The translations under genes were made by a program, and so were the position numbers. This document shows positions 3,449 through 19,370 of a stretch of DNA of 64,000 bases, one piece after another (within the stretch, counting starts at the first letter, position 1; each line of letters starts with the position of its first letter). The stretch is from the NCBI GenBank assembly GCA_022446905.1, contig JAKVBT010000012.1:4885-68884 (forward strand), read 5' to 3'. The notes below the pieces were generated by a model. That model ran no database searches, had not been told where the DNA came from, and saw only the letters and a list, made by a program, of their open reading frames with translations. Source of the stretch: Phycisphaerales bacterium (GTDB taxonomy: Bacteria; Planctomycetota; Phycisphaerae; Phycisphaerales; SM1A02).

Positions 3449-3672
3449 GCCCAACCCTCCTGCATGGAAAGAAAACGCGCTGACCACAGCCTCCAGAAGT
3501 GGCCCGCATCTTCAAGGCCCATCCTATAGGTACTCAGACCGATTGGTGATGGCTGTCAAACTACCCGGGAAGCAGTTTGCCAATTCATGCCATCATGATT
3601 TCCGACATGGCAGGCAAGCACTGAGTAATGAACCACACAACCTCTTCTTGTTGCTGCACGTACGATGGACGA

Positions 3673-4683
3673 ATGCTCCACATCGGGCCCAAGACGCTGC
3701 AAAGCAAGGTACTCCTTGCCCCAATGGCAGGACACTGCGATTTGCCATTCCGGCTGCTGTGCCGGCAACTTGGCGGCGTTGGCCTCGCCAGCACTGATCT
3801 TTTAAATGTGCACAGTCTGCTGCGCGGGTCCCCCAAAGCGATGAAACTGGCGGCAACGTGCGCCGATGACAACCCACTGTGCATGCAGGTATATGGCAAT
3901 AGCGCCGATCCACTCCCGGAAGCAGGCCTCTGGGCCGTAGATCACGGCGCGTCCATCGTCGATATCAATATGGGTTGTCCGGTTGACAAGGTGGCCAAAA
4001 AGCACGGCGGGTCATTGCTGCTATGTGATGTAGAGGACACTGTGCGTCTGGCAGAGCGGATGGTGGAGACGATCACCCCTAGGACAGGCGTGCCTGTGAC
4101 AGCAAAGATTCGGCTCGGCTGGGATGATGATCGCATCGTCGGTCCCGATCTGGCGCGCCGACTTGAGCAAGTGGGTATCGCTGCAATCACGGTGCATGGC
4201 CGAACGACCGAGCAATTCTTCAAAGGCACGGTTCGACTTGGCGGCATTCGCGAAGTCGTCGAAGCGGTCGATGCCATTCCAGTGATTGGTAATGGCGATA
4301 TCCGATGCGCTGAAGATGCTGCGCAGATGATGGCGATGACCGGCTGCGACGGTGTCATGGTGGCTCGCGGGGCACTCGGGCGGCCGTGGATATTCAGAGA
4401 GATCGATGCCAGACTGTCGGGGCAACCGATCCCCGATCCACCATCCCGACTGGAATGGCTGGGCATCATTGAGCGCCATTTGGATCTCATCCTCGAGTAT
4501 CAGGATGAACGCGCGGTTCTCCACCGCCTGCGCAATGGCATCAGTCGATATGCCAAGGGCATGCATGGAGTCAAACGGCTCAAGGATTCTGTACGCGTCG
4601 CGACGTGTGCTGATGACATCCGCAGTGCCCTACGCATGGTTGGCACACCATCCCCGCCCACCTCACAGGCCGTGATGGCCTGA
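3673..4683 (+). CDS. dus: tRNA-dihydrouridine synthase (DusB-like)
   Basis: FMN-dependent reduction of uridine to dihydrouridine in tRNA, in the cytosol. A TIM barrel begins at [15 protein letters not shown], as in Dus[20 protein letters not shown] carries the catalytic cysteine, followed by [24 protein letters not shown] (FMN/phosphate contact) and the C-terminal FMN phosphate loop VIGNGDIRC and [15 protein letters not shown]. The frame extends upstream to 3628, but family alignment (MLHIGPKTL matching the usual start) favours the ATG at 3673. That gives 336 residues, usual for DusB. It is a monocistronic-looking gene, convergent with gspF. Confidence 0.93.
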
Positions 4684-4698
4684 GATGACCGTGGGTGC

Positions 4699-5946
4699 TT
4701 AGCCAGTGACCACGCTGCTCATCTTGAAGATTGGCAGCAGCAGCGCCATGGCGACAGCGCCAACGAGAATGCCCATGCCGACAATAAGGACAGGCTCAAT
4801 CATTGACGTCGCCTTCTTGATGCCAGATTCCAGATCATCATCGCACTGCGTAGCGATCTTCTCCATCACCTCGGGCAGCTTGGCACTGCGCTCACCTGAC
4901 GACATCATCGATGCCACACTCGGCGGAATCCAGCGGCAGTCTGTGGCAGCACCAGTCATGGGACGACCGTCGCGAACACGATGCTCCATGTCATCCCACA
5001 AGCGGTCAAAAACCACATTGTTGGTCACCCCACGACAAATACGAATGACATCAATCAAGCCAACCCCGCCAGCAAGCAAGGTGCTCATTGTCCGTGATGC
5101 ACGGGCCAAATACACCGTGATGGTGAGTCGACCAATCACCGGCGTTGACAACTTGGCCCAATCAAGCGCCTTCTGCCCAGATCGAGTTCGCCGCCAGAGC
5201 GCCACCCCAACCAGGATGGCAGCCACCGCCGGCACCCAGTACATCCATCCATAACGCAAACCATCACCAATGGCCATCATGATGCGTGTTGCAGGGGGAA
5301 GGTCCGCACCACGCTGCTGATAGATCGCTGCAAACTTAGGAAGTACAGCTACCAGCATGAACATCGTGATCAATAGTGCACTGCCAAACATGATTGCTGG
5401 ATAGGTTGCGGCACCACGGACTTGTTTACGAGTCTTCTCTTCTCGTACGAGATACTCGCCAAGACGTGTGAGCATGAGTGCCATGGTGCCACTGGCCTCG
5501 GAAGCGCGGACCAGACTGACAACAATCGGTGTAAAAATGCGTGGCCAGCGGGCCAAACTGCTCGACAACGGTGTGCCGCCGCAGACGTCATGGTGGATTT
5601 CTCCGACAAGGTCAGAGAACTCCTTGCGACGACCCTGGAGACGGCACGACTCCAAGGCTTCCGGCAGCGGCACACCGGTGTCGAGCATGACACCGAGTTG
5701 TTGACAGAACACAGCCACATCCTCACGTCGAACCCGACGCGCAGCAACACCCCGACGGATTTCCTCGGCATCAAAATCGGGCATGGCGTGACTGGCCGTC
5801 TGGACAGCCGTGACCAACAGACCATCCCCACGCAGCATGGCGGCGATCTCTTCAGGCGATGTTCCTGAAAGTGTTCCAGTGACCACTTCCCCTTCTTGGG
5901 AGCGGGCGCGATAGGAAAACGTATGCTTAGCAGAAGTGGTCGTCAT
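4699..5946 (-). CDS. gspF: Type II secretion/type IV pilus inner-membrane platform protein (GspF/PilC)
   Basis: A 415-residue platform protein that couples the assembly ATPase to pseudopilin or pilin polymerisation. Two copies of the GspF domain are visible: FCQQLGVMLDTGVPLPEALE in the first, and YLARASRTMSTLLAGGVGLI in the second. Three hydrophobic segments are visible (near residues 165-190, 220-235 and 380-405), the last containing the C-terminal IVGMGILVGAVAMALLLPIF. The N-terminal cytoplasmic segment HTFSYRARSQEGEVVTGTLS is also typical of PilC/GspF. The ATG overlaps the gspE stop by 4 bp (5943-5946), indicating translational coupling. It is the last gene of the long minus-strand pilus/secretion operon. 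Confidence 0.93.
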   Translation of the reverse strand: MTTTSAKHTFSYRARSQEGEVVTGTLSGTSPEEIAAMLRGDGLLVTAVQTASHAMPDFDAEEIRRGVAARRVRREDVAVFCQQLGVMLDTGVPLPEALESCRLQGRRKEFSDLVGEIHHDVCGGTPLSSSLARWPRIFTPIVVSLVRASEASGTMALMLTRLGEYLVREEKTRKQVRGAATYPAIMFGSALLITMFMLVAVLPKFAAIYQQRGADLPPATRIMMAIGDGLRYGWMYWVPAVAAILVGVALWRRTRSGQKALDWAKLSTPVIGRLTITVYLARASRTMSTLLAGGVGLIDVIRICRGVTNNVVFDRLWDDMEHRVRDGRPMTGAATDCRWIPPSVASMMSSGERSAKLPEVMEKIATQCDDDLESGIKKATSMIEPVLIVGMGILVGAVAMALLLPIFKMSSVVTG

Positions 5947-7673
5947 GAGATTGCTGCGTACAGGACTTCTTCAGGGGTTGTCAGCCCCGCAGCGACCTTT
6001 TCCATGCCATCATCGCGCAAGGTTCGGAAGCCACCATCAGTCAGGAGCGCACGCAAGGCCTGCAAAGGTGCACCTGAAGCAATAGCTTCGAGCAGCGCTG
6101 CATCTGGCACAAGCAATTCAAAGACCCCGACACGGCCGGCGTATCCCGTTCCTCTGCAGCGGCCACATCCAGTGCCACGCCACAGTTTTCCGGGATCCCC
6201 GCCGGCCGCCTTGATCGCCGCGGCAGCACGCTCATCAGGCTCCGCCGGAGCCTTGCAGTGCGGGCAGATCTTCCGCACTAAACGCTGCGCCAAGACGCCG
6301 CGAAGCGTCGCTGCCACGAGGTAGGGCTCAACGCCGAGATTCACCAACCGCGTCACGGCACTTGGCGCGTCATTGGTGTGCAGCGTCGAGAACACGAGAT
6401 GTCCAGTTAGCGCGGCCTGTGTCACAATGCCCGCTGTTTCATTATCACGCACTTCGCCAACCATGATGATGTCAGGATCTTGACGCAGCATGGCTCGAAG
6501 AGCGCCTGCAAATGTGAATCCAGCTCGCGTGTTGACCTGCGCCTGATTGACACCTGGCAACCGCGCTTCGACTGGGTCTTCAATCGTTGACAGATTGCGA
6601 TCATCAGCGCTAATTGAGCCCAGCACGCTATAGAGCGTTGTCGACTTACCAGATCCCGTTGGACCAGTCACCAGAACCACACCATTTGGAGCTTCGACAA
6701 TCTCTTGCCATGCTTCCAGCATGCGTCCACTGAAGCCCAATTGCTCAAGACCAAGACGGCTGTTGCGGCTGTCAATAATACGGATGACTACTTTTTCGCC
6801 ATGCTTGCCGGGCATGGTCGACACACGCAAGTCGATTGGCCGTCCATCCATCATCACATTGAAGTCGCCATCCTGTGGCACTCGACGTTCAGAAATGTCG
6901 AGGTTGGACATGATCTTGATACGACTGGCGATCGCTGCATGCATGCGATGCGGAGGCGAAAGTTTCTCATACAACCGACCATCAACGCGATAGCGAACGC
7001 GAAGCTTGTTGTCGTCTGGTTCGATATGGATGTCTGAGGCGCCCTCTTGAACAGCCGTGTAGATGATGTAGTTCACCAACTTGACTACTGGGCCGTGACC
7101 AGCAACTTCTTCCAAGTCTGCCAGTTCCGTCGCCTGCCGCTCAATGACTGAGAAGTCTTCATCGGCGATGTCTTCATAAATGTCATCAATGACAAAGACA
7201 TTGGCTGATGGCAACCAACTGCGAATCGCAGATTCAATCTCAGCCTTCGTTGCTGCAACAAGTTCAACCTGATGATCAGTCAAACGCGCAATTTCTTCAG
7301 CCAAAATCAAGTTGCTTGGCTCAATCACCGCCACAGTCAGCACGCCACGCACCAAGAACAGCGGTAGAACGCGATGCTCTTCGATGAATTCACGCGGCAA
7401 CAGATCAATGACTGTCGGATCAGCCGTACGCGCTACATGTCGGACATATGGAACGCCATAACTTTCAGCTAGGGTCTCTACGACTTCATCTTCAGTCGCC
7501 ATCTCTAGCCGCTGCAACACTTCGCCAAGCAAATGAGCATTGTCGTTTTCGCGTTGCCACTCGAGTGCCCGCTCAAGATCAGCCACCGAGATAATGCCAC
7601 GATCAACGAGCCTCTGCCCCAGTGGGCTCTCGTTGGCGAGCTTCATTCCACCTTGTGTCCAGCGGTCACTCAT
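5943..7673 (-). CDS. gspE: Assembly ATPase GspE/PilB with N-terminal MshEN-like domain
   Basis: A 576-residue hexameric ATPase that powers pilus or pseudopilus assembly from the cytoplasmic face. Residues about 15-75 form an MshEN-type domain, with the motif LGQRLVDRGIISVADLERAL at 18-37, a module known to bind cyclic di-GMP in relatives. The ATPase core has Walker A GPTGSGKST (337-345), Walker B-like DPDIIMVGEVRD, the histidine box TGHLVFSTLHTND and the two CxxC pairs (CPHC at 470, CGRC near 505) that bind zinc in GspE/PilB. The start at 7673 overlaps the STAS gene stop (ATGA). The basic residue usually preceding LGxx in MshEN motifs is proline here, so ligand binding needs testing. Confidence 0.95.
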   Translation of the reverse strand: MSDRWTQGGMKLANESPLGQRLVDRGIISVADLERALEWQRENDNAHLLGEVLQRLEMATEDEVVETLAESYGVPYVRHVARTADPTVIDLLPREFIEEHRVLPLFLVRGVLTVAVIEPSNLILAEEIARLTDHQVELVAATKAEIESAIRSWLPSANVFVIDDIYEDIADEDFSVIERQATELADLEEVAGHGPVVKLVNYIIYTAVQEGASDIHIEPDDNKLRVRYRVDGRLYEKLSPPHRMHAAIASRIKIMSNLDISERRVPQDGDFNVMMDGRPIDLRVSTMPGKHGEKVVIRIIDSRNSRLGLEQLGFSGRMLEAWQEIVEAPNGVVLVTGPTGSGKSTTLYSVLGSISADDRNLSTIEDPVEARLPGVNQAQVNTRAGFTFAGALRAMLRQDPDIIMVGEVRDNETAGIVTQAALTGHLVFSTLHTNDAPSAVTRLVNLGVEPYLVAATLRGVLAQRLVRKICPHCKAPAEPDERAAAAIKAAGGDPGKLWRGTGCGRCRGTGYAGRVGVFELLVPDAALLEAIASGAPLQALRALLTDGGFRTLRDDGMEKVAAGLTTPEEVLYAAIS

Positions 7674-8017
7674 GCCACTTGCCCCTTAGCGAACGACTTC
7701 GCCGCAGATTCCAGCGTGTTATGTACTGGCACGCGTCGGTTGAGACGTGTTACCTCCACAGCGGCTGCAGGCTGTCCCCCACCGAGCACTAGCCGAAAGT
7801 GACCTCCAAAACCCTGCACATGATCGTTCATCCACAGCAGCGCTTCGAGACCCGCAGAATCCACTCGCTCACATTCACGCAGGTCAGCAATTAATCGAAT
7901 GCCAGAAGTCATCTGCTCTTCGCATCGTCTCCGCAGAACATCGACATCGTCCGAGACGAGCTCGCCTGCAATCTGCACCACGGTGCCACTTCGATGTGAT
8001 TCCCATTGCAATTTCAT
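7670..8017 (-). CDS. STAS-domain protein (anti-sigma factor antagonist-like)
   Basis: A small cytosolic regulator of 115 residues from the ATG at 8017, which overlaps the HD-GYP stop (ATGA) and has GGAGG 7 nt upstream; the longer in-frame start at 8077 lies inside the upstream gene. The whole protein is one STAS domain: VVQIAGELVSDDVDVLRRRC, then IADLRECERVDSAGLEALLW, in which the serine of DSAGL is the residue phosphorylated in SpoIIAA-type proteins. No partner anti-sigma kinase gene is adjacent; the nearby histidine kinase is of the HisKA class. Its place inside the pilus/secretion operon suggests it controls that machine, which is inference. Confidence 0.8.
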   Translation of the reverse strand: MKLQWESHRSGTVVQIAGELVSDDVDVLRRRCEEQMTSGIRLIADLRECERVDSAGLEALLWMNDHVQGFGGHFRLVLGGGQPAAAVEVTRLNRRVPVHNTLESAAKSFAKGQVA

Positions 8018-9639
8018 GCTGCGTCCTCCATCGGCGTGAGATTGGTTTGTCGATGTGTATCCGCCAGTGCTTCCCACTCAGAGAAGTCCAATGCGAGGAA
8101 GGTCTCGACCAGAGCTGGATCAAATTGTGCTCCAGCATTGGCCCGAATAATCTCGAGCACTTTTGCACGATCCATCGCTGTCCGATACGTTCGTGTTGAA
8201 CACATCGCATCAAAAGCATCTGCCAAGGCAATCAGCCGAGCACAAAGTGGGATGTCTTCTCCGGACAAACCCTCGGGATACCCTTTCCCATCCCAACGCT
8301 CGTGGTGATGCTTAACACCTGGCAGGATGTCATCAAAATTGGGGATGTCCTTGAGAATCGTCCAGCCGATTTCTGGATGGCGTCGAACTTGATCAACTTC
8401 ATGTTGTTCCAGTGCACCAGGCTTACAAAGCACCGTTTCTGGAACACCAATCTTGCCAACATCATGTACCAGCCCGGCGATGTGCATCCGCTGCACATCC
8501 TGGGCGCCCAGCCCGATCGCCTCAGCCAGTTGTCGAGTTAGACAAGCAACTCGTCGCGAGTGACCGCAGGTGTACCGGTCCTTGGCATCAATGGAAGCTG
8601 TAATTGCTTCGAGTGTTCCAAGGAACATTGAATTGACATCCTCGAACAGACCAGCGTTCTCGAGATGAAGTCCAATGTGGGCTGCCGCTGCGGCTAACAA
8701 CTTGATATCAACCGAAGATGGCGTTTCATCCGGCCCCTGCTTATCTCCTGCTACGAGCAATCCGATCACCCGACCATTGCGCCCAATGGCGTGAGCGACG
8801 CCGGCTGTGCCTAGCGAATCGAGTTCAGGATCGTCACCACGAACTGGACCAGCCATCAAAGGGCTATCAAGGTTCTCACGCCCGGCAATACTTGCCAACA
8901 GTGTGCGTAGTGCAGCACGATCACGCGGCGCATCGCCGGACACAATCAGCCTTCCATCGCCTGCACCTTCGCGGTCAATGTAGGCTGCTACCCAAGCATA
9001 CGGCAGCGTATGCAACAACTCCTGACAAACCTGTGCAGCAAATCGATGCGGACGCGACTCCACCGACATCTTGTCAGTAATCGAATACAGCAGATTGATC
9101 TCTTCCCAAGTCTCAGCCAATTCCCGACCAACTTGCTCAAGTGTCTGCTCGCGTCGATGCCGCGCTTGGCGATCAGCCCACAGACGACTAAAGAGCGACC
9201 CCAATCGTGGCACTTCACTGGTCTCGGGTAGTGACATTCGACGCAGTCTTTCACGACAGACGCGGCCATCGAGGCCAATTGCTTGGCACATGGCTGACAA
9301 GTGCTCACTGTCCAACAATTCACGTGTAGGAATCAGTGCACATGTAAAACCGACCGTCGAGCGTCGCTCTTGAAGCAGGGCCGGAGCAGCCCAAAGCCCA
9401 GGAACAAGTTCAACAGCCGTAGGTCGTGCCTGCTCATTCCAAGCCGAGGCAGCCTCCATCAACGATCGCTTGACGAGGGTCGGTGCTTGCAACAAATCAG
9501 CCAGCCAGTCCCGATCACTTCGCCGACTAGTCAATGCGCCATCTGCGGAGCATGAGACCAGCAACAGACCGAGTTCACGCAGCATGGTCTGCAGTTCAGT
9601 GCAGTGCGTACGAACCTGATTGCGGGAGAGTGTCCTCAC
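8014..9639 (-). CDS. HD-GYP cyclic di-GMP phosphodiesterase with GAF-like domain
   Basis: A 541-residue cytosolic protein. Residues about 160-190 look like a coiled coil (REQTLEQVGRELAETWEEIN), residues 190-330 resemble a GAF sensor domain, and residues 340-541 are a full HD-GYP domain: GLVHDVGKIG at 389-398, then HHHERWDGKGYP ending at 455, followed by LADAFDAMCSTRTYR. These are the metal ligands and GYP loop of active c-di-GMP phosphodiesterases. The N-terminal 150 residues are unassigned. Its start overlaps the response regulator stop and its stop overlaps the STAS start, so all three are co-translated. Degrading c-di-GMP next to an MshEN-containing ATPase suggests local control of assembly. 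Confidence 0.92.
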   Translation of the reverse strand: MRTLSRNQVRTHCTELQTMLRELGLLLVSCSADGALTSRRSDRDWLADLLQAPTLVKRSLMEAASAWNEQARPTAVELVPGLWAAPALLQERRSTVGFTCALIPTRELLDSEHLSAMCQAIGLDGRVCRERLRRMSLPETSEVPRLGSLFSRLWADRQARHRREQTLEQVGRELAETWEEINLLYSITDKMSVESRPHRFAAQVCQELLHTLPYAWVAAYIDREGAGDGRLIVSGDAPRDRAALRTLLASIAGRENLDSPLMAGPVRGDDPELDSLGTAGVAHAIGRNGRVIGLLVAGDKQGPDETPSSVDIKLLAAAAAHIGLHLENAGLFEDVNSMFLGTLEAITASIDAKDRYTCGHSRRVACLTRQLAEAIGLGAQDVQRMHIAGLVHDVGKIGVPETVLCKPGALEQHEVDQVRRHPEIGWTILKDIPNFDDILPGVKHHHERWDGKGYPEGLSGEDIPLCARLIALADAFDAMCSTRTYRTAMDRAKVLEIIRANAGAQFDPALVETFLALDFSEWEALADTHRQTNLTPMEDAA

Positions 9640-10034
9640 GCTGCACGCTCCATAATGTCTGTATCAATACCCAGAACCCGACGAACCTGTTCAAGAATGG
9701 TTCGGGGACTAAATGGCTTATTGACCACTTTGCGAACATTCGAGAGTGATGCAGCCTCACTTCCCAAGGCGTATCCACGCGCAGTGAGAATGATCACCGG
9801 AATATCAGCGGTTGCTGCATCACTGAGTAGTGACCTGCACAACTCAATGCCATTGACATATGGCATTTGAAGATCTGTGATCACGAGGTCTGGTTGTGCT
9901 GAAGCAAGCTGGTGCATGGCATCCTCGCCATCGACTGCTGTATCCACAATAAAGCCGCTATTTCGAAGCTTGAGAGACAGCACATGGAGAATGTGGGACT
10001 CATCATCAACAACAAGAATTCGTCGGGACATCAT
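9636..10034 (-). CDS. Single-domain response regulator
   Basis: A 132-residue receiver domain with no output domain. The acidic pocket is VVDDE (Asp10-Asp11), the phosphoacceptor is Asp54 in VITDLQMP, the switch threonine is Thr84 in IILTARG and the conserved lysine is in VNKPFSP (Lys106). All key residues are present, so it should be phosphorylatable. The upstream gene, 6 bp away, encodes the likely cognate histidine kinase; the downstream gene (HD-GYP) overlaps by 4 bp. The pair could act like a split HD-GYP response regulator, in which the receiver works in trans. That last point is inference. Confidence 0.93.
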   Translation of the reverse strand: MMSRRILVVDDESHILHVLSLKLRNSGFIVDTAVDGEDAMHQLASAQPDLVITDLQMPYVNGIELCRSLLSDAATADIPVIILTARGYALGSEAASLSNVRKVVNKPFSPRTILEQVRRVLGIDTDIMERAA

Positions 10035-10040
10035 GCCACC

Positions 10041-11480
10041 TCATGCCGCCAGTTTGGCGGGGGTCTGAGCCATAGGCACCGTGAACCAGAATCGCGAACC
10101 CATTCCAATCGTGGACTCCAAGCCGATCTGGCCTCTGTGCACAGTTTCAATAATGTGGCGACAGAGATTCAGGCCCAGCCCGGTACCCTTCGCCACGCGC
10201 TTGTAATTCTCAACGCGGTAGAACTTTTCAAAGACGTGCTCAGCATCTGCTGGAGCAATTCCAAGGCCGGTGTCGGATACCGCCACATGCACTGAACGCG
10301 TCAAAGTGTCGCTATCGACTGAGACGGTCACCCGCCCACCTTCTGGGGTGTACTTGACAGCGTTGGACAGCAGATTGACCACTACCTGACAAAGCATGTC
10401 CGCATCGCCGTCAACTGTTGCACCCAGTGGTGCAATCTCGGTATGCAGATCAATCCGTCGCGAACGGGCCTGAGGCTCCATCGTCCTGACAGCGGATTCG
10501 ACGAGTTCACGAATGTCAACCTCAGAGCGGTCAATCTCAATGATGCCCGCCTCAATACGACTGATGTTCAGCATATTGTCGACCAGTCGTGACAGCCGTT
10601 CTGTTTCTGCTTGAATGATCTCGTAGAACTCCCGTCGCGTAGCCTCGTCATTTGCTTCACCATCAACCAGCAACTCGACATAGGCCTGCATTGATGACAG
10701 CGGCGTACGCAACTCATGGCTCGCCTTAGAGACAAACTCACTCTTCAACTGAGAGATTTCTCGCTCTCGACTGAGGTCGTGAAGCACTGTGACAACTGCA
10801 GCAGTACGACCGCGATCATCCGGCACGCAAGCCGACACGATCTCGCAGGCTGATTCACCACGAGCACCATGCAATGTGAGTTCGCAACGCCGAGGATCAA
10901 CACCGACACCGGCTTCGAGCGTCTCCTGCATGATTCGTCGAACCATTGAGTCGTCAATGACCTCTGCCATCGGCTTTCCAACAGCATCCGCCGGGTGACA
11001 ACCAAGCATCGCGCCAGCAGCCGCATTGACAAGTGTGATTTCACGGAATGCATTACAGACAACGACCGCTTCGTCCATCACGCCAAGGACCGCCTCGGCC
11101 TGTCGCTGACCGCCGATGGCCATCTTGGCGTTGATTTCGAGTTCACGTTGACGCGTCCGCCATGCAGCCTCTGCCTGACGATGCCGCACTTGATATTCCA
11201 TCATTGTGCGCAGAACACTTCGCAACCATCGCGGTCCCTGTCCTGAGGGCGTTGACCCATGATCTTCTAATTCAGCGCGAAGCCTCATCATGGCACGGTT
11301 CATAGACATAAACGACACAGCCGCCACCATGGAGGTGAACAACACAGCACCAATGACCACCAGCCACGGATCAGCCGTAAGGCCGATGACGTTGGCGGCG
11401 AACATGGTCGCCAGTCCGCTGGTCAGCGAGAGGGCGCCAAGCGCCACACCGCCGAGGATGGATCGCATCAGAGTCTGCAT
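10041..11480 (-). CDS. Membrane sensor histidine kinase with PAS domain
   Basis: A 479-residue kinase from the ATG at 11480 (GAGGT about 6 nt upstream); the frame continues to 11576 but would then overlap the TPR gene. Two hydrophobic helices lie within residues 10-60 with very little periplasmic loop, followed by a helical linker, a PAS domain (about 130-235; VLGVMDEAVVVCNAFREI), HisKA with SHELRTPLSSMQ (phospho-His255) and HATPase_c with N box NLLSNAVKYTPEGG, G1 DTGLGIAP, F box FEKFYRVE and G2 GTGLGLNL. It is complete by motifs. With little periplasmic sensing domain, the signal is probably intracellular or membrane-borne. It sits between pilus structural genes and the assembly ATPase. Confidence 0.93.
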   Translation of the reverse strand: MQTLMRSILGGVALGALSLTSGLATMFAANVIGLTADPWLVVIGAVLFTSMVAAVSFMSMNRAMMRLRAELEDHGSTPSGQGPRWLRSVLRTMMEYQVRHRQAEAAWRTRQRELEINAKMAIGGQRQAEAVLGVMDEAVVVCNAFREITLVNAAAGAMLGCHPADAVGKPMAEVIDDSMVRRIMQETLEAGVGVDPRRCELTLHGARGESACEIVSACVPDDRGRTAAVVTVLHDLSREREISQLKSEFVSKASHELRTPLSSMQAYVELLVDGEANDEATRREFYEIIQAETERLSRLVDNMLNISRIEAGIIEIDRSEVDIRELVESAVRTMEPQARSRRIDLHTEIAPLGATVDGDADMLCQVVVNLLSNAVKYTPEGGRVTVSVDSDTLTRSVHVAVSDTGLGIAPADAEHVFEKFYRVENYKRVAKGTGLGLNLCRHIIETVHRGQIGLESTIGMGSRFWFTVPMAQTPAKLAA

Positions 11481-11512: not shown

Positions 11513-12706
11513 TCAGGGACCTTGGGTGCCGTACACCCCTGACACGCTTGCACCATCGGCTGAGCCAGAGGCCCACTTAACCGCGATCTCACGTGCTTTT
11601 TCACTTCCGGAAAAATCCCCCGCTCGATGCCGCACGGAAGACAGCACCGCCCATATCTCCGGTTGGTCCGGGAACTGCTCCGATAACCGCTCAAGTCGAG
11701 TTTCTGCGTCTTGAAGGCGGCCATCCTGCCGCTCCACCAAGGCCCTGAAGAGCTCACGCTCGTATGGGCATGCATCGAGTTGCTCCAACTTGTCAGCAGA
11801 GGACTGGAGACTATTCCAATCGCCGATATCCCACGCGAGTAAGCCAAACTCACGCCAGATGCCTGCATCATCCGGGGAATCCGCGCAAATCAACTTGAAC
11901 ATCGATCTGGCTTCCACAGAACGGCCACTGGCCATGAGTGCTCGGACCTGCAATCGGCGGAGTGCAGGAGAAAGTTCTCCCCATTGATCCTGAATGTACT
12001 CCAGGCGATTGAGACACTCCCCCCACTGCCCAGCACCAAAAGTCATGTGCGCCAAGTCGTGCATCATGCCGCGATCCTCAGGCGCCAACAGCAATGCCGC
12101 CTCGCAGTGACTCACCGCCGCGTCGTGATTGCCACGCAGCATCTCACAATGTCCCTGTAGGTGGCGGAGGCCCGCGTGATGTTCAAAATGGTCCATCCGC
12201 GATGAGATCACCTCATGCGCTTCGTTTACCTGACCTGCAGCAATGAGCGATTCAGCCCATGCCAGCACAAACTGAGGGCGACCCGGATCGGCCTCAGATG
12301 CTTTTGAAAAATGCTCAACGGCCATGTCGTCCTTTGACCAACGTTCGTAGAGGACTCCCAGGTAGTAATGAACCTCGCTGCCCTCTTCACCAAGTGTGAT
12401 CGCTTGCTCGAAACTACGGCGAGCCTCATCAAGCCGATGTTGCTCGACCAGAATGCGCCCAAGAAGCACATACCAAGCTGGCTCTTTGGGAAAGCGGTCA
12501 ATAGCAGACGTCATCAGCATCCGCGCTCGCTCCAACTGCCCCGTTTCAAATGCTGACACCGCCTGCTCGTGAACCATGCGGGCATTGACAGCATCCATGC
12601 GTGAATACGCTTGCCGTCGCATTTCCTTGCCATGCTGACTTGGGCCGCCACAGGCGGAGAGCAGAACCACAACGCCAAGAAGTAATGATGTTGCCAGTCG
12701 ATTCAT
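11513..12706 (-). CDS. TPR-repeat lipoprotein (pilotin/Tad-like assembly factor)
   Basis: A 397-residue lipoprotein. Signal peptide MNRLATSLLLGVVVLLSAC ends in lipobox LSAC, so Cys19 is the lipidated residue. The rest is a TPR array; recognisable units include PAWYVLLGRILVEQHRLDEA and VHYYLGVLYERWSKDDMAVE, then about six more of the 34-residue type to the C-terminus. It overlaps the secretin stop by 4 bp (12703-12706), so it is probably a PilF/PilW-like pilotin or assembly scaffold for the secretin. That role rests on position and architecture, not on a specific family match. Confidence 0.82.
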   Translation of the reverse strand: MNRLATSLLLGVVVLLSACGGPSQHGKEMRRQAYSRMDAVNARMVHEQAVSAFETGQLERARMLMTSAIDRFPKEPAWYVLLGRILVEQHRLDEARRSFEQAITLGEEGSEVHYYLGVLYERWSKDDMAVEHFSKASEADPGRPQFVLAWAESLIAAGQVNEAHEVISSRMDHFEHHAGLRHLQGHCEMLRGNHDAAVSHCEAALLLAPEDRGMMHDLAHMTFGAGQWGECLNRLEYIQDQWGELSPALRRLQVRALMASGRSVEARSMFKLICADSPDDAGIWREFGLLAWDIGDWNSLQSSADKLEQLDACPYERELFRALVERQDGRLQDAETRLERLSEQFPDQPEIWAVLSSVRHRAGDFSGSEKAREIAVKWASGSADGASVSGVYGTQGP

Positions 12707-14751
12707 TGGCGATCCTCCCCGAATGAACCGGCATTCAGACCCCCAGTTAAGGTCACTGGCTCAATGTACTGATTGGACATTCCTGTTGCCTCAGGTTCTT
12801 GCGGCGGCTCCGGGGGCAACACAGGCTGAGGCACGGGACGCTCCTGCTGATCAAAGTTTTCAACTGGCGCAATTGGATCTAATCGTCCTGCAGGAACGAG
12901 ATTCATTTCGCGGTCTAGCAGTCGCTTGTTGATGCTCTTTTCCCAATGCTCCTTGCGATCTCCAGTCAGTTGTTCACGGAACCGATGCAACTCAGGCTGG
13001 CTCATATCCTGACGGAGTGATGCGTTGGCGTAATACAACGCAAGATCTAACTCGCCATTGCGATAAGCCTCAAGCGCATCTCTGTTGTAGTTCGCCGTGA
13101 CTTGATCCCTGCTCCAAGGCAGCAGACCGCTGCGAACACCCATACGAACGGTATCCATGATCTCAAGGCTTTCCTCGCCAATCTCATAGAGCTGCTCGTC
13201 CTTGATGACTGTAGGTGTCAAAAGAAAGATAATTTCAACACGGTCAATCCCGTCATCCTGACCACGAAACATCTGGCCTGCGATAGGAATGTCACCAAGA
13301 AGTGGAACCTGCCGACGCGTCACAACGCTCTTCTCTTGAAAGAACCCGCCAAGCACGATGGTTTCTCCGTTACGCACCCGCACATTGGTAATGATGTCAT
13401 TGGTGGTCTTATCAACCAGTGTGACGGGGGCTCCATTTAAGCCAAGCGCATCACGCTGCACCGCATCCGAGAGACTTGGATGCAGTTCCATACGAATCAT
13501 GTCATTGGGGGCAATAAACGGCCGGAAACTTAACTCAATACCTGTCGGAAGAAACTCCTGACCCTGTGTGGTTGATGTATCTGTCTGCGTCGAAGTCAAG
13601 TAACCAACATCTCGGCCAACATGAATCTTTGCACGCTGTCGATTTAGGCACATGACTTTCGGACGAGCCAATACCGATGTATCCGTCACATCATCGAGGG
13701 CGCGGAGGAAAATCGCAAAGCCATCCTTAATGATGCCCAATGAAAAAGTACTATCACCACTACCGCCAATCGTGCCACGCCCAGCAATGGCATTGTCAGA
13801 TCTGATCTGGCCGGATTGCAGACCATTGACAGCACTCAGTGGACTCACCGGCTCGTTACCACCGAGCAATCCTGCAATCGGAGTAGTGACATCCATGAAG
13901 TCAAGACTTGTCACAAAGGAGAAGTCAATGCCAAACGCATTATTCTCCTGGATCGCAGCCTGCAAAATGGCCGCCTCGACTTGAACCTGGGTGGGCGGCA
14001 CATCAAGATCTTTGATGGTCGAAGCGATGTCATCAAGCACCTCGGCAAAGTCCGTCACTACCAACCGGGCACTAAAGGCCCAAGAGTCACCACCTGCCAA
14101 TGTCTCGTCGACGGCAAAACCTGGAACGACATCGCCCAAGGCTGTCACAGATCCGCGATCTGAGAGCATTGGCTCGACAATGGTCAGACCATTAGCCGCT
14201 GATATGTAATGAAGTTCAAAGACACGGGTTTCAGGTCGACGCCGCGCCTCGATGATCGCGTCCACATCGGCCCGCGGGTGCACATAGATAAAGTTGCCTT
14301 CTTCAATGGATGCGCATCCTCCAACATCGAGTACCGCCTTGAGTGCCTCATCAAAGGTGACGTCATAGAGATTCACACTCACACTGCTAGTGACATCAGG
14401 CCCTGCCAGAATGTTTCGCTGTGAGACCTCTGAAAGCATCTCCAGCATTTGCGTGAGTGGAATGTCACGGGCATTCAAGTTGAAGGTGCCGTAATCGGTC
14501 GCCTCAACATCACTGTCACCTTCAGTTGCAACCCGGGGGCTCTCCCCAACTGTGGCAGCCTCATCGAAAGAAGCTGGAGCTTCGGTTGCAGCAGCAACTT
14601 CGGCATCAGAGGGACTGGGTGGCGTGGTCGTGGGAGCGACCTCGCCCGAGTTATCGGGCGTAGTGACAGCGGCTTCCTGCGCATAGCTGGAAGACGCAAA
14701 CGCAACGACAACAGTCAGCAGTAAGCGCATCGCGGTTCGGTATCGGTCCAT
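12703..14751 (-). CDS. gspD: Outer-membrane secretin (GspD/PilQ family)
   Basis: A 682-residue secretin forming the outer-membrane channel for the pilus or secreted proteins. A signal peptide (MDRYRTAMRLLLTVVVAFAS, then SSYA) is followed by an Ala/Pro/Thr-rich linker, an N0/N1-type region (ARDIPLTQMLEMLSEVSQRN, then IEEGNFIYVHP), and the C-terminal secretin core with VLARPKVMCLNRQRAKIHVG, FLPTGIELSFRPFI, VRNGETIVLGGFF and VPLLGDIPIAGQMFR. After the core there is an unusual extension of about 150 residues with a TPR-like stretch (RDALEAYRNGELDLALYYAN) and a Pro/Glu-rich tail. It overlaps the TPR lipoprotein gene, its likely assembly partner. Confidence 0.95.
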   Translation of the reverse strand: MDRYRTAMRLLLTVVVAFASSSYAQEAAVTTPDNSGEVAPTTTPPSPSDAEVAAATEAPASFDEAATVGESPRVATEGDSDVEATDYGTFNLNARDIPLTQMLEMLSEVSQRNILAGPDVTSSVSVNLYDVTFDEALKAVLDVGGCASIEEGNFIYVHPRADVDAIIEARRRPETRVFELHYISAANGLTIVEPMLSDRGSVTALGDVVPGFAVDETLAGGDSWAFSARLVVTDFAEVLDDIASTIKDLDVPPTQVQVEAAILQAAIQENNAFGIDFSFVTSLDFMDVTTPIAGLLGGNEPVSPLSAVNGLQSGQIRSDNAIAGRGTIGGSGDSTFSLGIIKDGFAIFLRALDDVTDTSVLARPKVMCLNRQRAKIHVGRDVGYLTSTQTDTSTTQGQEFLPTGIELSFRPFIAPNDMIRMELHPSLSDAVQRDALGLNGAPVTLVDKTTNDIITNVRVRNGETIVLGGFFQEKSVVTRRQVPLLGDIPIAGQMFRGQDDGIDRVEIIFLLTPTVIKDEQLYEIGEESLEIMDTVRMGVRSGLLPWSRDQVTANYNRDALEAYRNGELDLALYYANASLRQDMSQPELHRFREQLTGDRKEHWEKSINKRLLDREMNLVPAGRLDPIAPVENFDQQERPVPQPVLPPEPPQEPEATGMSNQYIEPVTLTGGLNAGSFGEDRQ

Positions 14752-14777: not shown

Positions 14778-15323
14778 TTATCGGTCGTTGGTGGCATTCA
14801 TGCTCAGCCGGTATCTGGCATCGCTGCATTCCAAAATGACGCCACGGTCGACAATTTCAACCACAGTAAATACAAGCCCGGAATCACTGGGAATCGACTC
14901 CCCAGGCCGCCTCGTGCGGCCGTCAATAACGGCGAGCGTGGGCGGCATTGCTGCTTCTAGTCGCATTGCCTTCAATGACTGGCGTGGATCAATCGCCGTT
15001 GAAGTTGAGGCCAACGGCTCATCCTCGCCATGCACTTCAGTTTTGGGGAACCAGGTATCACTTACTTGAAATGGATCACGCACTGGCGTTGACGGAAGAA
15101 GCACTTCCACTGGAGACTCAGGGTGCGCTGTTTCGTGAGGATCAGCCATTGCCAATTCCACAGATCCTTCAGCCAGCGCGGTGCGCGGTATCTGCTTGAT
15201 GACAATCAGACGGGTCCAGAAAAGAAGCGCTACTGCCAATAACGTGCACAGAAGCCCAAATCGCTTGCGATCAGCAGTTAAACGCACCCCGAATCGTCGC
15301 AATTGCAAGAGCATGTTGTTCAT
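14778..15323 (-). CDS. PilP/GspC-like inner-membrane linker protein
   Basis: A 181-residue protein with one N-terminal membrane helix (FGLLCTLLAVALLFW) after a basic cytoplasmic segment, then a Pro/Glu-rich linker and a small C-terminal beta domain (RPGESIPSDSGLVFTVVEI, DRGVILECSDARYRL). That layout and the place between PilO-like and secretin genes match PilP or the HR domain of GspC, which connect the inner-membrane complex to the secretin. PilP is usually a lipoprotein and this is not, so GspC is the closer architecture. Start overlaps the PilO stop (ATGA at 15320-15323). Confidence 0.68.
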   Translation of the reverse strand: MNNMLLQLRRFGVRLTADRKRFGLLCTLLAVALLFWTRLIVIKQIPRTALAEGSVELAMADPHETAHPESPVEVLLPSTPVRDPFQVSDTWFPKTEVHGEDEPLASTSTAIDPRQSLKAMRLEAAMPPTLAVIDGRTRRPGESIPSDSGLVFTVVEIVDRGVILECSDARYRLSMNATNDR

Positions 15324-15892
15324 CTGCCGGTCTCCTTTTCGTTGATCGGCGCGTAGACCAGATCTAGGGACAAAGACGCCTCCAATGCGCAGCGTGCGCG
15401 ATCAGGGTCTGTGTCCTCGCCAAGATTGATGTCCAGACCGGACACCCGCACCAACCTCGGCAGATTTTCCACTCGATCCAACACCGTCCAAATCGAATTG
15501 AAGTCGGCATCCAGATCCATGCGCAGTGGCAGCAACTCAAATTGGGCAGACCCCTTCTGCGGTCGATCCACGACTGCAAATGTTTGATCGAACACACGTT
15601 GACCATCCACAGGCAGCGACAGTGATTGCATCAGCCCAGCAACATCTGCAATCGCGGGAATCTGACGACATTTTTCATCACGGGTACGCCGAGCGACAGC
15701 CAAACGTTCGGTCGCAGTAGTCAACTCTGCTTCTGCAGTGCCCAATCCAGACACCTTTGAGGCAAGTTCTGCTGCCCGAATCTGGCGAGAAGTGCCTTCC
15801 TGCCAATTGGGCCAGGCCGACCACCACACCAGGGCGATAGCCGCAGCCACAGACAGCGAGAGCGCCCAACGTTGTGCACGTACCTGCGTCAT
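15320..15892 (-). CDS. pilO: PilO-like pilus assembly protein
   Basis: A 190-residue bitopic protein. The ATG at 15892 overlaps the PilN stop and has GGAGGAA 8 nt upstream, so the longer frame from 15934 is not used. A membrane helix (ALSLSVAAAIALVWWSAW) is followed by a coiled coil (SKVSGLGTAEAELTTATERL) and a ferredoxin-like C-terminal region (FELLPLRMDLDADFNSIWTV). This is the standard PilO plan; sequence similarity is weak as usual for the family. It forms the inner-membrane alignment complex with the PilN- and PilP-like proteins next to it. Confidence 0.75.
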   Translation of the reverse strand: MTQVRAQRWALSLSVAAAIALVWWSAWPNWQEGTSRQIRAAELASKVSGLGTAEAELTTATERLAVARRTRDEKCRQIPAIADVAGLMQSLSLPVDGQRVFDQTFAVVDRPQKGSAQFELLPLRMDLDADFNSIWTVLDRVENLPRLVRVSGLDINLGEDTDPDRARCALEASLSLDLVYAPINEKETGR

Positions 15893-16566
15893 GGAAGGTT
15901 TCCTCCCATTGTCTGATCTTTCATCAACGCCCACGATGGGCTATTGGGTGGCTGCTCGGCATCTCGCACCATCCATGGCCGATCGAGATCAACAGAAAAC
16001 ACCAGGGTGAAACCCCGAGCACTTCGCCCGCGCACTACACGCGATCGGCTGCCCTCAAGTCGGACCGACTCAAATGGAGCAAGTCCCTCTAAGCGTCTTG
16101 CCAGTGTGGCCACAGCCTCATCAGTAACTGCGAATCCAGCAATCTGACCTTGCAACCTTCGACTTGCAGCATCTTCACCTACAAGACGATCGCGGTCGAC
16201 ATAACTCAGATTCACAGAGTCGAGCGTTGCATCTTCGGGCAGTGCACGCACCAGACCAGCCATCAATGATGACACCGGCACGGGGAGCGCAACTTCGTGA
16301 TACTCATCCATCGCCGCTTCAATCGCGACAGCGGCATCATTGCACTCGGTCGTCTGTGATTCAAGCGATAACGCCCGCTCTGCCAATGCTTCGAGTCTGA
16401 CCAGTTCAGTACCGGCCTGCTCAAAGCGAATTCGAGACCAGGTTGTCAGTGCTCCAGCAACCAGAAGTACAGAAACGCAGATCGTCACCGTTCTTCGCAG
16501 CCGCTGGCCAGCCTGCGCACGCGCACGAATGGCCTCTGGCATCAAATTCAATGGATGCTGCATCAT
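15889..16566 (-). CDS. pilN: PilN-like pilus assembly protein
   Basis: A 225-residue protein starting at the ATG at 16566, which overlaps the PilM stop (ATGA). The short cytoplasmic N-terminus contains HPLNLMPEAIRAR, matching the conserved INLLP-type motif through which PilN binds the groove of PilM. Then come a membrane helix (TVTICVSVLLVAGALTTW), a coiled coil and an alpha/beta domain. The coupled order PilM, PilN, PilO, PilP, secretin is the classical type IV pilus alignment complex order, which supports the identification. Confidence 0.8.
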   Translation of the reverse strand: MMQHPLNLMPEAIRARAQAGQRLRRTVTICVSVLLVAGALTTWSRIRFEQAGTELVRLEALAERALSLESQTTECNDAAVAIEAAMDEYHEVALPVPVSSLMAGLVRALPEDATLDSVNLSYVDRDRLVGEDAASRRLQGQIAGFAVTDEAVATLARRLEGLAPFESVRLEGSRSRVVRGRSARGFTLVFSVDLDRPWMVRDAEQPPNSPSWALMKDQTMGGNLP

Positions 16567-17657
16567 GCTGCCATCCTTTGACTCTGACGACGCGGCGACT
16601 TGCCACGCAAACTCAACCCAGCCACAGCGGCCCAACCACTGATCGGACCACAGGATCCAGCGGTCTGAGCACGAATGTCCGCTGCCAGTGATTGCAGCGT
16701 CCCAGATTGATCATCCTCACGGACTGTCAATCGACAGGAACTGGCGAGCGCCTCTGCCAGCCCAGGCTCACCGGCATGGCATCCCGACAAAACAAGGTAT
16801 TCCGGGCGAGTCCCTCGAATTGACACGCTGTAATGGCGCAAACAGAGCATGGCGTCGCGCGCCAACTCTGAAACCACACTGCGAGTTGCAGCAGTCAACG
16901 CTGCATCCGTAGTCGCATCCATGGTCGTTTCGCCTTCGAGGCGTGCCCAACGAAGTTCGCGTGCGGCCTGCTCATCTAAGTCCAAATGCTCTGCTACTGC
17001 TGCATCGAAGTGCCGACCGCCAATAGCCAGTGACTTACAAAAAGTTGTTCGATGGCCGGACAGCATCAGCAAGGTCGACCCGGTAGGTCCAACATCAAGC
17101 ACAACTCGTGCTGACTGTTGATCCGCGTCGCGACGATACCGTTGACTAAACAATCGGCCCAATCCGCCAAAGTCGGTATCGACAGCAACTGGACGCAATC
17201 CAGCCTCGAGGATGGCCTCTAGCCGTGCACCAAGCCGCTCCGTCGATGCCGCCACAAGGAGTACTTCCTGTCGACTGCCTTCACTCATGCCCACCGGTAG
17301 CCAATCACATTGCAACTGATCACGTGCAATTCCAAATCGATCTGAGGCTTCCCAGACCACTGCTTCCTTCAACTCGGCTTCTGGCATCTGCGGGAATCGG
17401 GTCAGTTGAGTCCAAACCTCACTACGTGGCAAACAGACCACACAACGCCGCCCCGTAAATCCCCCATTGATAAATGCAGTTCGAATGGCGTCTGCTGTGT
17501 GGACCTCAGAAGCCTGAGCCGCTGGAACCCAGCCGGCTCCTGTCACACGCAAGCCGTCACGCTGATCACGGACTTGCAACATGCGAATACCGTCTTCATC
17601 AAAGGCGATGCCCAGATGACCCGTGCTTGATCGTGGGTTTCCAGTCAAGAATCGCAT
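16563..17657 (-). CDS. pilM: PilM-like actin-fold pilus assembly protein
   Basis: A 364-residue cytosolic actin/FtsA-like ATPase that docks on PilN. Features are HLGIAFDEDGIRMLQVRD (phosphate-1 strand), VCLPRSEVWTQLTRFPQMPE with EAVVWEASDRFGI, the usual PilM motif region, and VVLDVGPTGSTLLMLSGH followed by CKSLAIGGRHFDAAVAEHL (phosphate-2 and the GG..D..IA-type motif). Length is usual for PilM. It lies 9 bp after the pseudopilin gene and overlaps pilN. Confidence 0.86.
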   Translation of the reverse strand: MRFLTGNPRSSTGHLGIAFDEDGIRMLQVRDQRDGLRVTGAGWVPAAQASEVHTADAIRTAFINGGFTGRRCVVCLPRSEVWTQLTRFPQMPEAELKEAVVWEASDRFGIARDQLQCDWLPVGMSEGSRQEVLLVAASTERLGARLEAILEAGLRPVAVDTDFGGLGRLFSQRYRRDADQQSARVVLDVGPTGSTLLMLSGHRTTFCKSLAIGGRHFDAAVAEHLDLDEQAARELRWARLEGETTMDATTDAALTAATRSVVSELARDAMLCLRHYSVSIRGTRPEYLVLSGCHAGEPGLAEALASSCRLTVREDDQSGTLQSLAADIRAQTAGSCGPISGWAAVAGLSLRGKSPRRQSQRMAA

Positions 17658-17666
17658 CGCGTGCTC

Positions 17667-18236
17667 CTAGGACACCTTCTCAACAGACATCCGACCAGTG
17701 ACCGGCGCGAGGTTGACCCGCCAAATCACATCACCATCAGACAACTCAATGGACACTGCACCGGCACCCAAACCAGGCGCACTGACAGTGCCGCCTAATC
17801 GATCAAATGTCACGTCCCGACCCCCTGAAGCCACACTAACAGCCGATACGGCAACCTCGGTAAACCGTTCATCAGCCACAAAGTCGACAATGAAGTCACC
17901 GCCACCACGACGTGTCTTCCAAGGATCATCTGAGTACTGCGCGGTTGCTTCATCGAAGGGATCCGCAAAGCTCGAATCCGTAACGTCAATCAAACACCAT
18001 CCGCGGCCATCAGCATAGAAATGCAATCGTCGATACTGCTGACTCGCCACCGCGTCGCACTGCGCCCATGACACATCAGACACCAATTGCTGAACAGCAG
18101 CCTGTACTTCAAGCCCACCGCGATCTGCCAAATGTGGCACAATCAGCGCACCAGAAATGCCCATGATCACCACCGTGATCAGCACTTCTAGAAGGGAAAA
18201 ACCCCTTCGAATCAGATGGTTGGCTGGATACATCAA
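17667..18236 (-). CDS. GspH-like minor pseudopilin
   Basis: A 189-residue protein with a class III signal: the basic leader NHLIRRG is followed by FSLLEVLITVVIMGISGALI, with Gly before Phe+1 and Glu at +5, the site cut and N-methylated by a prepilin peptidase. The C-terminal domain is long and beta-rich, as in GspH/FimT minor pseudopilins, and includes a Gly-rich loop TRRGGGDFIVD. It overlaps the small membrane protein gene by 4 bp. No prepilin peptidase is encoded in the window, so it must come from elsewhere. Confidence 0.85.
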   Translation of the reverse strand: MMYPANHLIRRGFSLLEVLITVVIMGISGALIVPHLADRGGLEVQAAVQQLVSDVSWAQCDAVASQQYRRLHFYADGRGWCLIDVTDSSFADPFDEATAQYSDDPWKTRRGGGDFIVDFVADERFTEVAVSAVSVASGGRDVTFDRLGGTVSAPGLGAGAVSIELSDGDVIWRVNLAPVTGRMSVEKVS

Positions 18237-18535
18237 CGCTTCACGGGCTCCTTCACGCTGACCTTGATGGAGCCTTTCTTGAGCTCACTGCGGAGGCCCT
18301 TCACCTCAGTAGTGAGTTGCTCAAGCAGGCTGATCATGGCTCGGCGCTGCTCATTAGCCAGTGCTGCAGCTGAACCAGCACCCCGCTGTGGAGCCTTGGG
18401 GACGGTCTGGGCCTGGGCTGATGCCACTACAGATGGCGGATCTGCTGCCAAACGGACACCAAGATCAACCGTTAGCAGTACAGCAACCACAGTCAGCATC
18501 ATGGAGAGGTAGGTTTCACGATTCATTGGTTTCAT
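18233..18535 (-). CDS. Small membrane-anchored protein of the pilus operon, unknown function
   Basis: A 100-residue protein with an AAGGAGG site 6 nt before its ATG. It has one N-terminal hydrophobic helix (YLSMMLTVVAVLLTVDLGV), an Ala/Pro/Gln-rich spacer, then an amphipathic helix (MISLLEQLTTEVKGLRSELK) likely to form a coiled coil, and a basic C-terminus. I do not recognise a family. Its position between the major pilin and a pseudopilin, with ATGA coupling to the latter, suggests a structural or regulatory accessory of the machine. Confidence 0.7.
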   Translation of the reverse strand: MKPMNRETYLSMMLTVVAVLLTVDLGVRLAADPPSVVASAQAQTVPKAPQRGAGSAAALANEQRRAMISLLEQLTTEVKGLRSELKKGSIKVSVKEPVKR

Positions 18536-18747: not shown

Positions 18748-19146
18748 TCACCAAGCTGCGACTGCCGCGATGTCCTGAGCATCTCCGCCGTCACCATCGC
18801 CATCGACATCGCCCGAGCCACTGTACGCAAGGGTCAAGCTGCCACTGGCGTAACTTTCCGTGAATCCTGCGGGCCATGTCACGGTTGCACTACGAATGTA
18901 GCCACCATTGTTCAAATCGGTGGACCATGTCGCATCGGCCGGATAGGCACCATTTTGCGAGTAGTACAACTCAATCTGACTGCGCATGGACTGCAACTGA
19001 GTCCGGGCTGAACTGATTGAGGCGTCATCGGCGGCATTGGTGAATTGCGGGACCACAATTGCGGCCAGAATGCCGAGAATCACGACAACAATAAGGATTT
19101 CGATGAGCGTAAAGCCACTGCGGGCACTGCGAGTTCGATAGGTCAT
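18748..19146 (-). CDS. Type IV pilin / GspG-like major pseudopilin
   Basis: A 132-residue pilin. The ATG at 19146 gives the leader MTYRTRSARSG followed by FTLIEILIVVVILGILAAIV, with the canonical Gly/Phe cleavage site and Glu+5. The hydrophobic helix continues into VPQFTNAADDASISSARTQL, as in GspG and type IV pilins. The C-terminus ends with an Asp/Gly run (DVDGDGDGGDAQD) that looks like a calcium-binding loop, as is known in GspG. The longer frame to 19203 adds an atypical leader and is not favoured. It is the first gene of the minus-strand operon and is divergent from the glycosyltransferase. Confidence 0.92.
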   Translation of the reverse strand: MTYRTRSARSGFTLIEILIVVVILGILAAIVVPQFTNAADDASISSARTQLQSMRSQIELYYSQNGAYPADATWSTDLNNGGYIRSATVTWPAGFTESYASGSLTLAYSGSGDVDGDGDGGDAQDIAAVAAW

Positions 19147-19370
19147 TTTCACATCAAGCTCCACACCAGTGATCCAGCAACCCACGCGGTCGTTGGCATG
19201 CACCAGACTGAGAATCGGGTCTGCTCAAACAATCGACATGGCACCCTTGACGATTCACTCAGGAGCCCATCTTGGCCTCATTTTCCATACCCTCAGACAC
19301 TGTCCCCACCGGCATAGCCCGTACAGATCCACCTTACGCTCCCCGACCAAGCCCCGTACCATTCCCACCC

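Follow-up and report, generated by a model that had tools for sequence, protein, structure and literature searches.

Here we report that four signalling genes, encoding a histidine kinase (HK), a stand-alone receiver (REC), an HD-GYP phosphodiesterase and a STAS protein, lie within a type IV pilus-like operon of a Phycisphaerales bacterium, and that this cassette is real, conserved and a variation on known pilus control. With moderate confidence, we read it as a class-wide cassette that ties a kinase-controlled, partner-switch-tuned c-di-GMP phosphodiesterase to a type IV pilus-like machine, the receptor probably not being the operon's own ATPase in textbook MshE mode. This reading draws directly on gene identity, gene order, conservation, intact active-site residues and the lost MshEN contacts of the ATPase.

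Based on Pfam and NCBIfam profiles and ORFs, the six signalling and assembly genes of the window (the whole 64,000-nucleotide stretch analysed) were found intact on the minus strand at 4699-11480, where the first-pass annotation had put them, and its placing of kinase, lone receiver, HD-GYP and STAS genes between the secretin/TPR and ATPase/platform genes was borne out by the profile searches. In transcription order, the operon runs from a pilin gene (19203) to the platform gene (end 4699), as listed here together with its neighbour:

18748..19203, minus strand: GspG-like/major-pilin-like pilin, the operon's first gene (profiles)
18233..18535, minus strand: 100-aa protein, matching no Pfam/NCBIfam family, position conserved in many relatives
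17667..18236, minus strand: GspH-like minor pilin (profiles)
16563..17657, minus strand: PilM (profiles)
15889..16635, minus strand: PilN (profiles)
15320..15934, minus strand: PilO (profiles)
14778..15323, minus strand: PilP-position protein, matching no Pfam/NCBIfam family, position conserved in many relatives
12703..14751, minus strand: secretin (PilQ 199.9 bits, GspD 193.6 bits, both below cut-off)
11513..12706, minus strand: TPR protein with a lipobox-like Cys near its N-terminus (PilW/PrsT-like scores below cut-off)
10041..11480, minus strand: histidine kinase (HK) with PAS, HisKA and HATPase_c, PhoR/PnpS-like (Pfam/NCBIfam)
9636..10034, minus strand: stand-alone receiver (REC), 132 aa, without output domain (profile)
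8014..9639, minus strand: HD-GYP phosphodiesterase, 541 aa, with a weak GAF and an N-terminal domain of no recognised kin (profiles, model)
7670..8017, minus strand: STAS protein, 115 aa, SpoIIAA/RsbV (anti-anti-sigma) type, with Ser54 (profiles, model)
5943..7673, minus strand: GspE/PilB assembly ATPase (E) with a modified N-terminal MshEN domain (profiles)
4699..5946, minus strand: GspF/PilC platform protein (F) (profiles)
3628-4683, plus strand: neighbouring dihydrouridine synthase gene, converging on the operon end

Of the five junctions between HK and F, four are 4-bp overlaps (GTGA at REC/HD-GYP; ATGA at HD-GYP/STAS, STAS/E and E/F), in agreement with the earlier description of genes almost all joined by ATGA overlaps; the HK/REC junction is a 6-bp gap, and TPR and HK are 32 bp apart if HK starts at the ATG at 11480. 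The pilus set is T4aP-like, with PilM-N-O, secretin, ATPase, platform and class III prepilins; the ATPase and secretin score below the PilB and PilQ cut-offs, and PilP is unrecognised. No retraction ATPase is encoded within the operon, and three PilT-family ATPases were found elsewhere in the genome.

Conservation of the gene order was assessed in an even draw of 150 genomes of the class with an HD-GYP match threshold of 1e-60. HD-GYP was found in 97 of them, 67 of which have the ATPase gene immediately downstream, spanning 16 of 21 families; 62 of the 67 ATPase matches with at least 54% identity in this class sample adjoin HD-GYP, and among the five that do not, two (G166 and G062) are partial matches, G166 starting at contig base 3. 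Profile annotation covered 56 loci, 20 of which were picked for HD-GYP/ATPase adjacency, so the adjacency counts within them are conditioned on locus choice, 97/150 and 67/150 being unconditioned. HD-GYP is present in 55 of these 56 loci and all six genes in 40 of the 55, in the same order in 40/40; the longer order M-N-O-Q-TPR-HK-REC-HDGYP-STAS-E-F, judged by ORF ends, is kept in 34/34 loci holding all of these genes. REC and HD-GYP lie within 300 bp of each other in 49/49 loci (4- or 1-bp overlap in 22), HD-GYP and STAS within 300 bp in 50/50 (overlap in 35), and STAS immediately precedes E in 50/50 loci with both (overlap in 13).

The HD-GYP search also gave a match in 40/40 close relatives, although several of these matches are no more than generic HD-GYPs, and 36 of their loci were studied (G019, G030, G036 and G038 were left out). 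HK-REC-HD-GYP-STAS-E-F order was observed in 25 of the 36, as far as contigs reach (that of L060 ends after HK); L069 has HD-GYP-STAS-E-F without HK and REC, L050 retains REC and HD-GYP, L071 retains HD-GYP alone, and seven relatives (L061-L066, L075) have secretin and TPR genes with the cassette absent at that place. As REC occurs without HK in L050, L160 and L173, and HD-GYP without either in L069, the chain is not obligate. The same cassette genes were found in metagenome-assembled Planctomycetota records among L080-L083, L086, L089 and L090, several being labelled Phycisphaerales or Phycisphaerae and L083 'Candidatus Kuenenia'. A gene order unique to this genome, a possibility raised by the first-pass annotation, is thus ruled out by close relatives and class sample alike, and order and content kept across many genera and families indicate that the arrangement is not due to chance.

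Active-site residues of HK, receiver and HD-GYP enzyme are intact across the cassettes, as judged from aligned residues counted with the window included and with matches covering <60% of a profile left out. The kinase, in which two hydrophobic N-terminal stretches are discernible by eye and a large periplasmic domain is absent, has invariant catalytic H/N/D/G residues (46/46). The receiver has its acidic pair D10 and D11, the phospho-acceptor D54 and K106 in 50/50 and T84 in 48/50 (Ser in the other two), and the HD-GYP protein has its metal-binding and signature residues H360, H392, D393, K396, H421, H445, H446 and D474 in 55/55, with the GYP signature in 54/55 (one Pro exception). One GAF model detects its GAF domain in 25 of 36 orthologues, the window protein scoring below the cut-off. 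The HD-GYP structural model (mean pLDDT 83.3), whose pTM of 0.46 makes the domain arrangement uncertain, resembles the c-di-GMP phosphodiesterase 4mcw (PmGH, the Persephonella GAF-HD-GYP phosphodiesterase) and c-di-GMP-bound DvhD (9rbz). The top profile match (5z7c, 8.8e-63) is a 3′3′-cGAMP phosphodiesterase, at least as strong as the c-di-GMP ones, so the substrate may be c-di-GMP or a related dinucleotide.

No fusion of REC and HD-GYP in a single ORF was found among the loci tested. The N-terminal 150 aa of HD-GYP were considered as a receiver docking domain, prompted by L069, in which this region and REC are both lost; the idea was rejected because HD-GYPs without the region (L200-L203, L205-L207, L213) still have a REC gene, i.e. 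the region is dispensable for co-occurrence with REC.

The window ATPase matches MshEN (PF05157, 62.6 bits versus a cut-off of 23.1), T2SSE (443.8 bits) and the NCBIfam c-di-GMP motif model NF053729 (44.8 versus 38), and the MshEN-like motif described earlier therefore stands at the level of domain models, but its c-di-GMP-contact motifs depart from the consensus. According to PMC5013675 and PMC12002112, the MshEN motif RLGxx(L/V/I)(L/V/I)xxG(L/V/I)(L/V/I)xxxxLxxxLxxQ occurs twice. The window counterparts run from P17LG to Q40 and from L48LG to S71, with L48 for Arg and S71 for Gln in motif II; the Pro for the leading Arg pointed out by the first-pass annotation is found in motif I (P17), but the larger change in motif II had been overlooked. 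Across 50 cassette ATPases, motif I begins with Pro in 21, Gln in 18, Arg in 7 and other residues in 4 and ends in Gln (Q24) in 50/50, while motif II begins with Leu in 50/50 and has at position 24 Ala (23), Ser (11), Gly (11) or others (5), never Gln. The strict motif is passed by 2/50 for motif I and 0/50 for motif II, the authors' relaxed pattern by 26/50 and 0/50, and most cassette ATPases are without three of the four R/Q contacts.

Twenty paralogous ATPases, tried as a canonical-MshEN control, failed in this role, their motifs being even more degraded than those of the cassette: motif I Gln and the Gly of the two motifs, kept in 50/50 cassette ATPases, occur in 14/20, 4/20 and 3/20 paralogues, whose linker is shorter in the alignment, leaving a gap at position 1 of motif II. 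Published mutants bear on the replaced contacts: MshE R9A abolishes c-di-GMP regulation (PMC4624772), and in the reconstructed PilF GSPII-A domain Ser for the motif II Arg abolishes binding and both Gln are needed (PMC12002112). Taken with the lost contacts, these mutants predict weak or no MshE-mode binding by the cassette ATPase, and c-di-GMP binding in textbook MshE form is not supported by its sequence. A cassette-like ATPase (RVG..., LLGE...) is also found at L184 (G177:C30:1097930-1099830), in a genome without an HD-GYP match at 1e-60; here nature itself separates the N-domain signature from the cassette and so allows their dependence to be probed.

Genome-wide, two GGDEF domains, two HD-GYP matches and seven MshEN were identified, together with no EAL and no PilZ domain in an assembly that is 96% complete, so these absences are likely, not certain; with so few components, the system appears small and tractable. 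The other MshEN proteins of the genome also deviate from the motif. In one of them (C45:451067), both motifs begin with Arg or Lys and have Gln at position 24, and its gene adjoins a PilT gene, making it a candidate receptor. A 170-aa ORF at L007 (G000:C45:273243-273491) consists almost only of MshEN with motif I near consensus and may be a stand-alone c-di-GMP binder.

The STAS protein retains Ser54 of the D-S motif in 52/52, and its structural model (pLDDT 93.7) has the SpoIIAA/RsbV fold, with matches to 4hyl, 1thn and 6m36; in both sequence and fold it is nearer to SpoIIAA/RsbV/TM1442, MlaB also appearing in the profile search (0.00028), and its TIGR00377 score (36.5 bits) is below the cut-off of 53.45. 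Possible partner-switch components, i.e. one HATPase_c_2 (RsbW-type kinase) and three SpoIIE phosphatase domains, are encoded on contigs other than that of the window. Switch proteins acting on c-di-GMP enzymes have precedents in SiaC-SiaD (PMC8457831) and HsbA/HsbD (PMC5085249); the SiaABCD and HptB-HsbA-HsbD systems of Pseudomonas aeruginosa thus resemble the cassette in tying a switch protein to a c-di-GMP enzyme, but that enzyme is a diguanylate cyclase there and a phosphodiesterase within a pilus operon here. Overlaps being commonest at HD-GYP/STAS (35/50 versus 13/50 at STAS/E) favours STAS acting with HD-GYP, which is suggestive only.

We infer the following chain. The membrane histidine kinase would phosphorylate the stand-alone receiver, which in turn would act on the separate GAF/HD-GYP protein, a 'split RpfG', and set its phosphodiesterase activity, so that c-di-GMP or a related dinucleotide may be lowered while the machine is being produced. 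A second, Ser-phosphorylation (partner-switch) input would come from the SpoIIAA-type STAS protein, for which HD-GYP is a likelier target than a sigma factor.

Other readings of the same genes were weighed against this chain. The first-pass annotation had suggested a possible circuit closed through the ATPase, in which HD-GYP lowers local c-di-GMP and the MshEN domain of the same operon's GspE senses it. MshEN scores above both the Pfam and NF053729 cut-offs, the constraint on motif I Gln and on the Gly of both motifs, unlike in paralogues, and the 62/67 close ATPases adjoining HD-GYP speak for such a loop, but Arg and Gln of motif II are each found in 0/50 and Arg of motif I in 7/50, and the MshE R9A and PilF GSPII-A Ser/Gln mutants lose regulation or binding (PMC4624772, PMC12002112). 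The circuit is thus not supported as stated; we consider it unlikely, its closing step being doubtful in textbook form, and the operon's own ATPase is probably not a receptor in textbook MshE mode. The invariant Gly and first Gln of cassette ATPases, unlike in paralogues, make an altered pocket possible, and it is conceivable, if somewhat improbable, that MshEN was remodelled in this lineage, with the pocket glycines, leucines and first Gln kept and the Arg and second Gln contacts replaced, and now senses another ligand or a protein such as STAS, in a loop with the operon's split-RpfG phosphodiesterase.

MlaB binds MlaF, and STAS might likewise bind and gate the assembly ATPase, with HD-GYP acting on pools sensed elsewhere. 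STAS standing directly before E wherever both occur, the altered yet conserved ATPase N-domain as a potential protein docking site and the MlaB profile match are consistent with this; the closer kinship of STAS to SpoIIAA/RsbV/TM1442 and its commoner overlaps with HD-GYP than with E argue against it, and we regard it as quite unlikely. Least of all do we expect genomic hitch-hiking, in which an ordinary kinase/receiver/HD-GYP set is merely co-transcribed with pilus genes: the seven relatives in which secretin and TPR genes stand with no cassette next to them would fit it, but the order is fixed in 16 families, with overlaps, and rearranged loci (L084, L113, L128) still hold cassette genes beside E and F.

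These rearranged loci come from a wider survey limited to 80 loci chosen by HD-GYP similarity, which therefore yields no frequency; four of the 80 are of interest besides class-type ones. In both L084 (Planctomycetota) and L113 (Phycisphaerae label), REC, HD-GYP, HK, STAS, E and F are followed, not preceded, by M-N-O-P and a pilin, and HK stands after HD-GYP in L084; L144 (Dehalococcoidia label) has HD-GYP-E-F. In L128:7514-20831 (Deltaproteobacteria label), HK-REC-HD-GYP-E-F-pilin is followed by M-N-O-P without STAS, the same idea in another phylum. With the L084 HD-GYP as query, 9 of 199 phylum genomes match at 1e-70, the window's included and all belonging to the same taxonomic order as the window, which is a weak negative for this cassette type because the L084 protein is nearer to the second HD-GYP copy.

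A second REC/HD-GYP pair adjoins another pilus-type set (F, M, N and pilins, some with E) on the opposite strand, at L076:8264-10366, L078:8078-10137, L077 (REC 9097, HD-GYP 9438) and L085 (REC 9444, HD-GYP 9830), so pairing of receiver and HD-GYP with pilus loci occurs twice in the group. An extra ATPase gene was observed between E and F in L173:3800-4921, L162:4242-5495, L163:4043-5308 and L167:14096-15238; that of L173 is PilT (TIGR01420, 422.9 bits), pointing to a retractable pilus, and the other three are weak E-profile matches.

In RpfG-type regulators, REC is fused to HD-GYP under histidine-kinase control, and such regulators are reported to influence type IV pili in Xanthomonas. The cassette likewise combines receiver and HD-GYP under a histidine kinase, but as separate ORFs, with a GAF on HD-GYP, within a pilus operon and with an added STAS gene. 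It shares with PmGH the GAF and HD-GYP architecture and fold, at 24% identity and with an extra N-terminal domain and a separate receiver. Like MshE of the MSHA pilus, its assembly ATPase has an N-terminal MshEN, but mostly without three of the four R/Q contacts and with a phosphodiesterase encoded in the same operon. PilSR and FimX-PilZ-PilB also place type IV pilus assembly under two-component or c-di-GMP control; in contrast, this genome has no PilZ and the cassette receiver has no DNA-binding output. In searches of the open-licence PMC literature, we found no description of such an operon (including HD-GYP, response regulator, GspE and STAS together) and no report on T4P control in this class.

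To our knowledge, c-di-GMP control of pili has been described mainly in proteobacteria, whose enzyme genes generally lie apart from the pilus genes. In the present case, a structural pilus operon carries four signalling genes in fixed order across a class, which indicates a probable coupling of pilus assembly to signalling. The altered MshEN illustrates that annotation from domain models alone can overcall c-di-GMP binding. If the remodelled MshEN loop were true, the pilus machine would contain its own complete controller, combining kinase, partner switch and second messenger.
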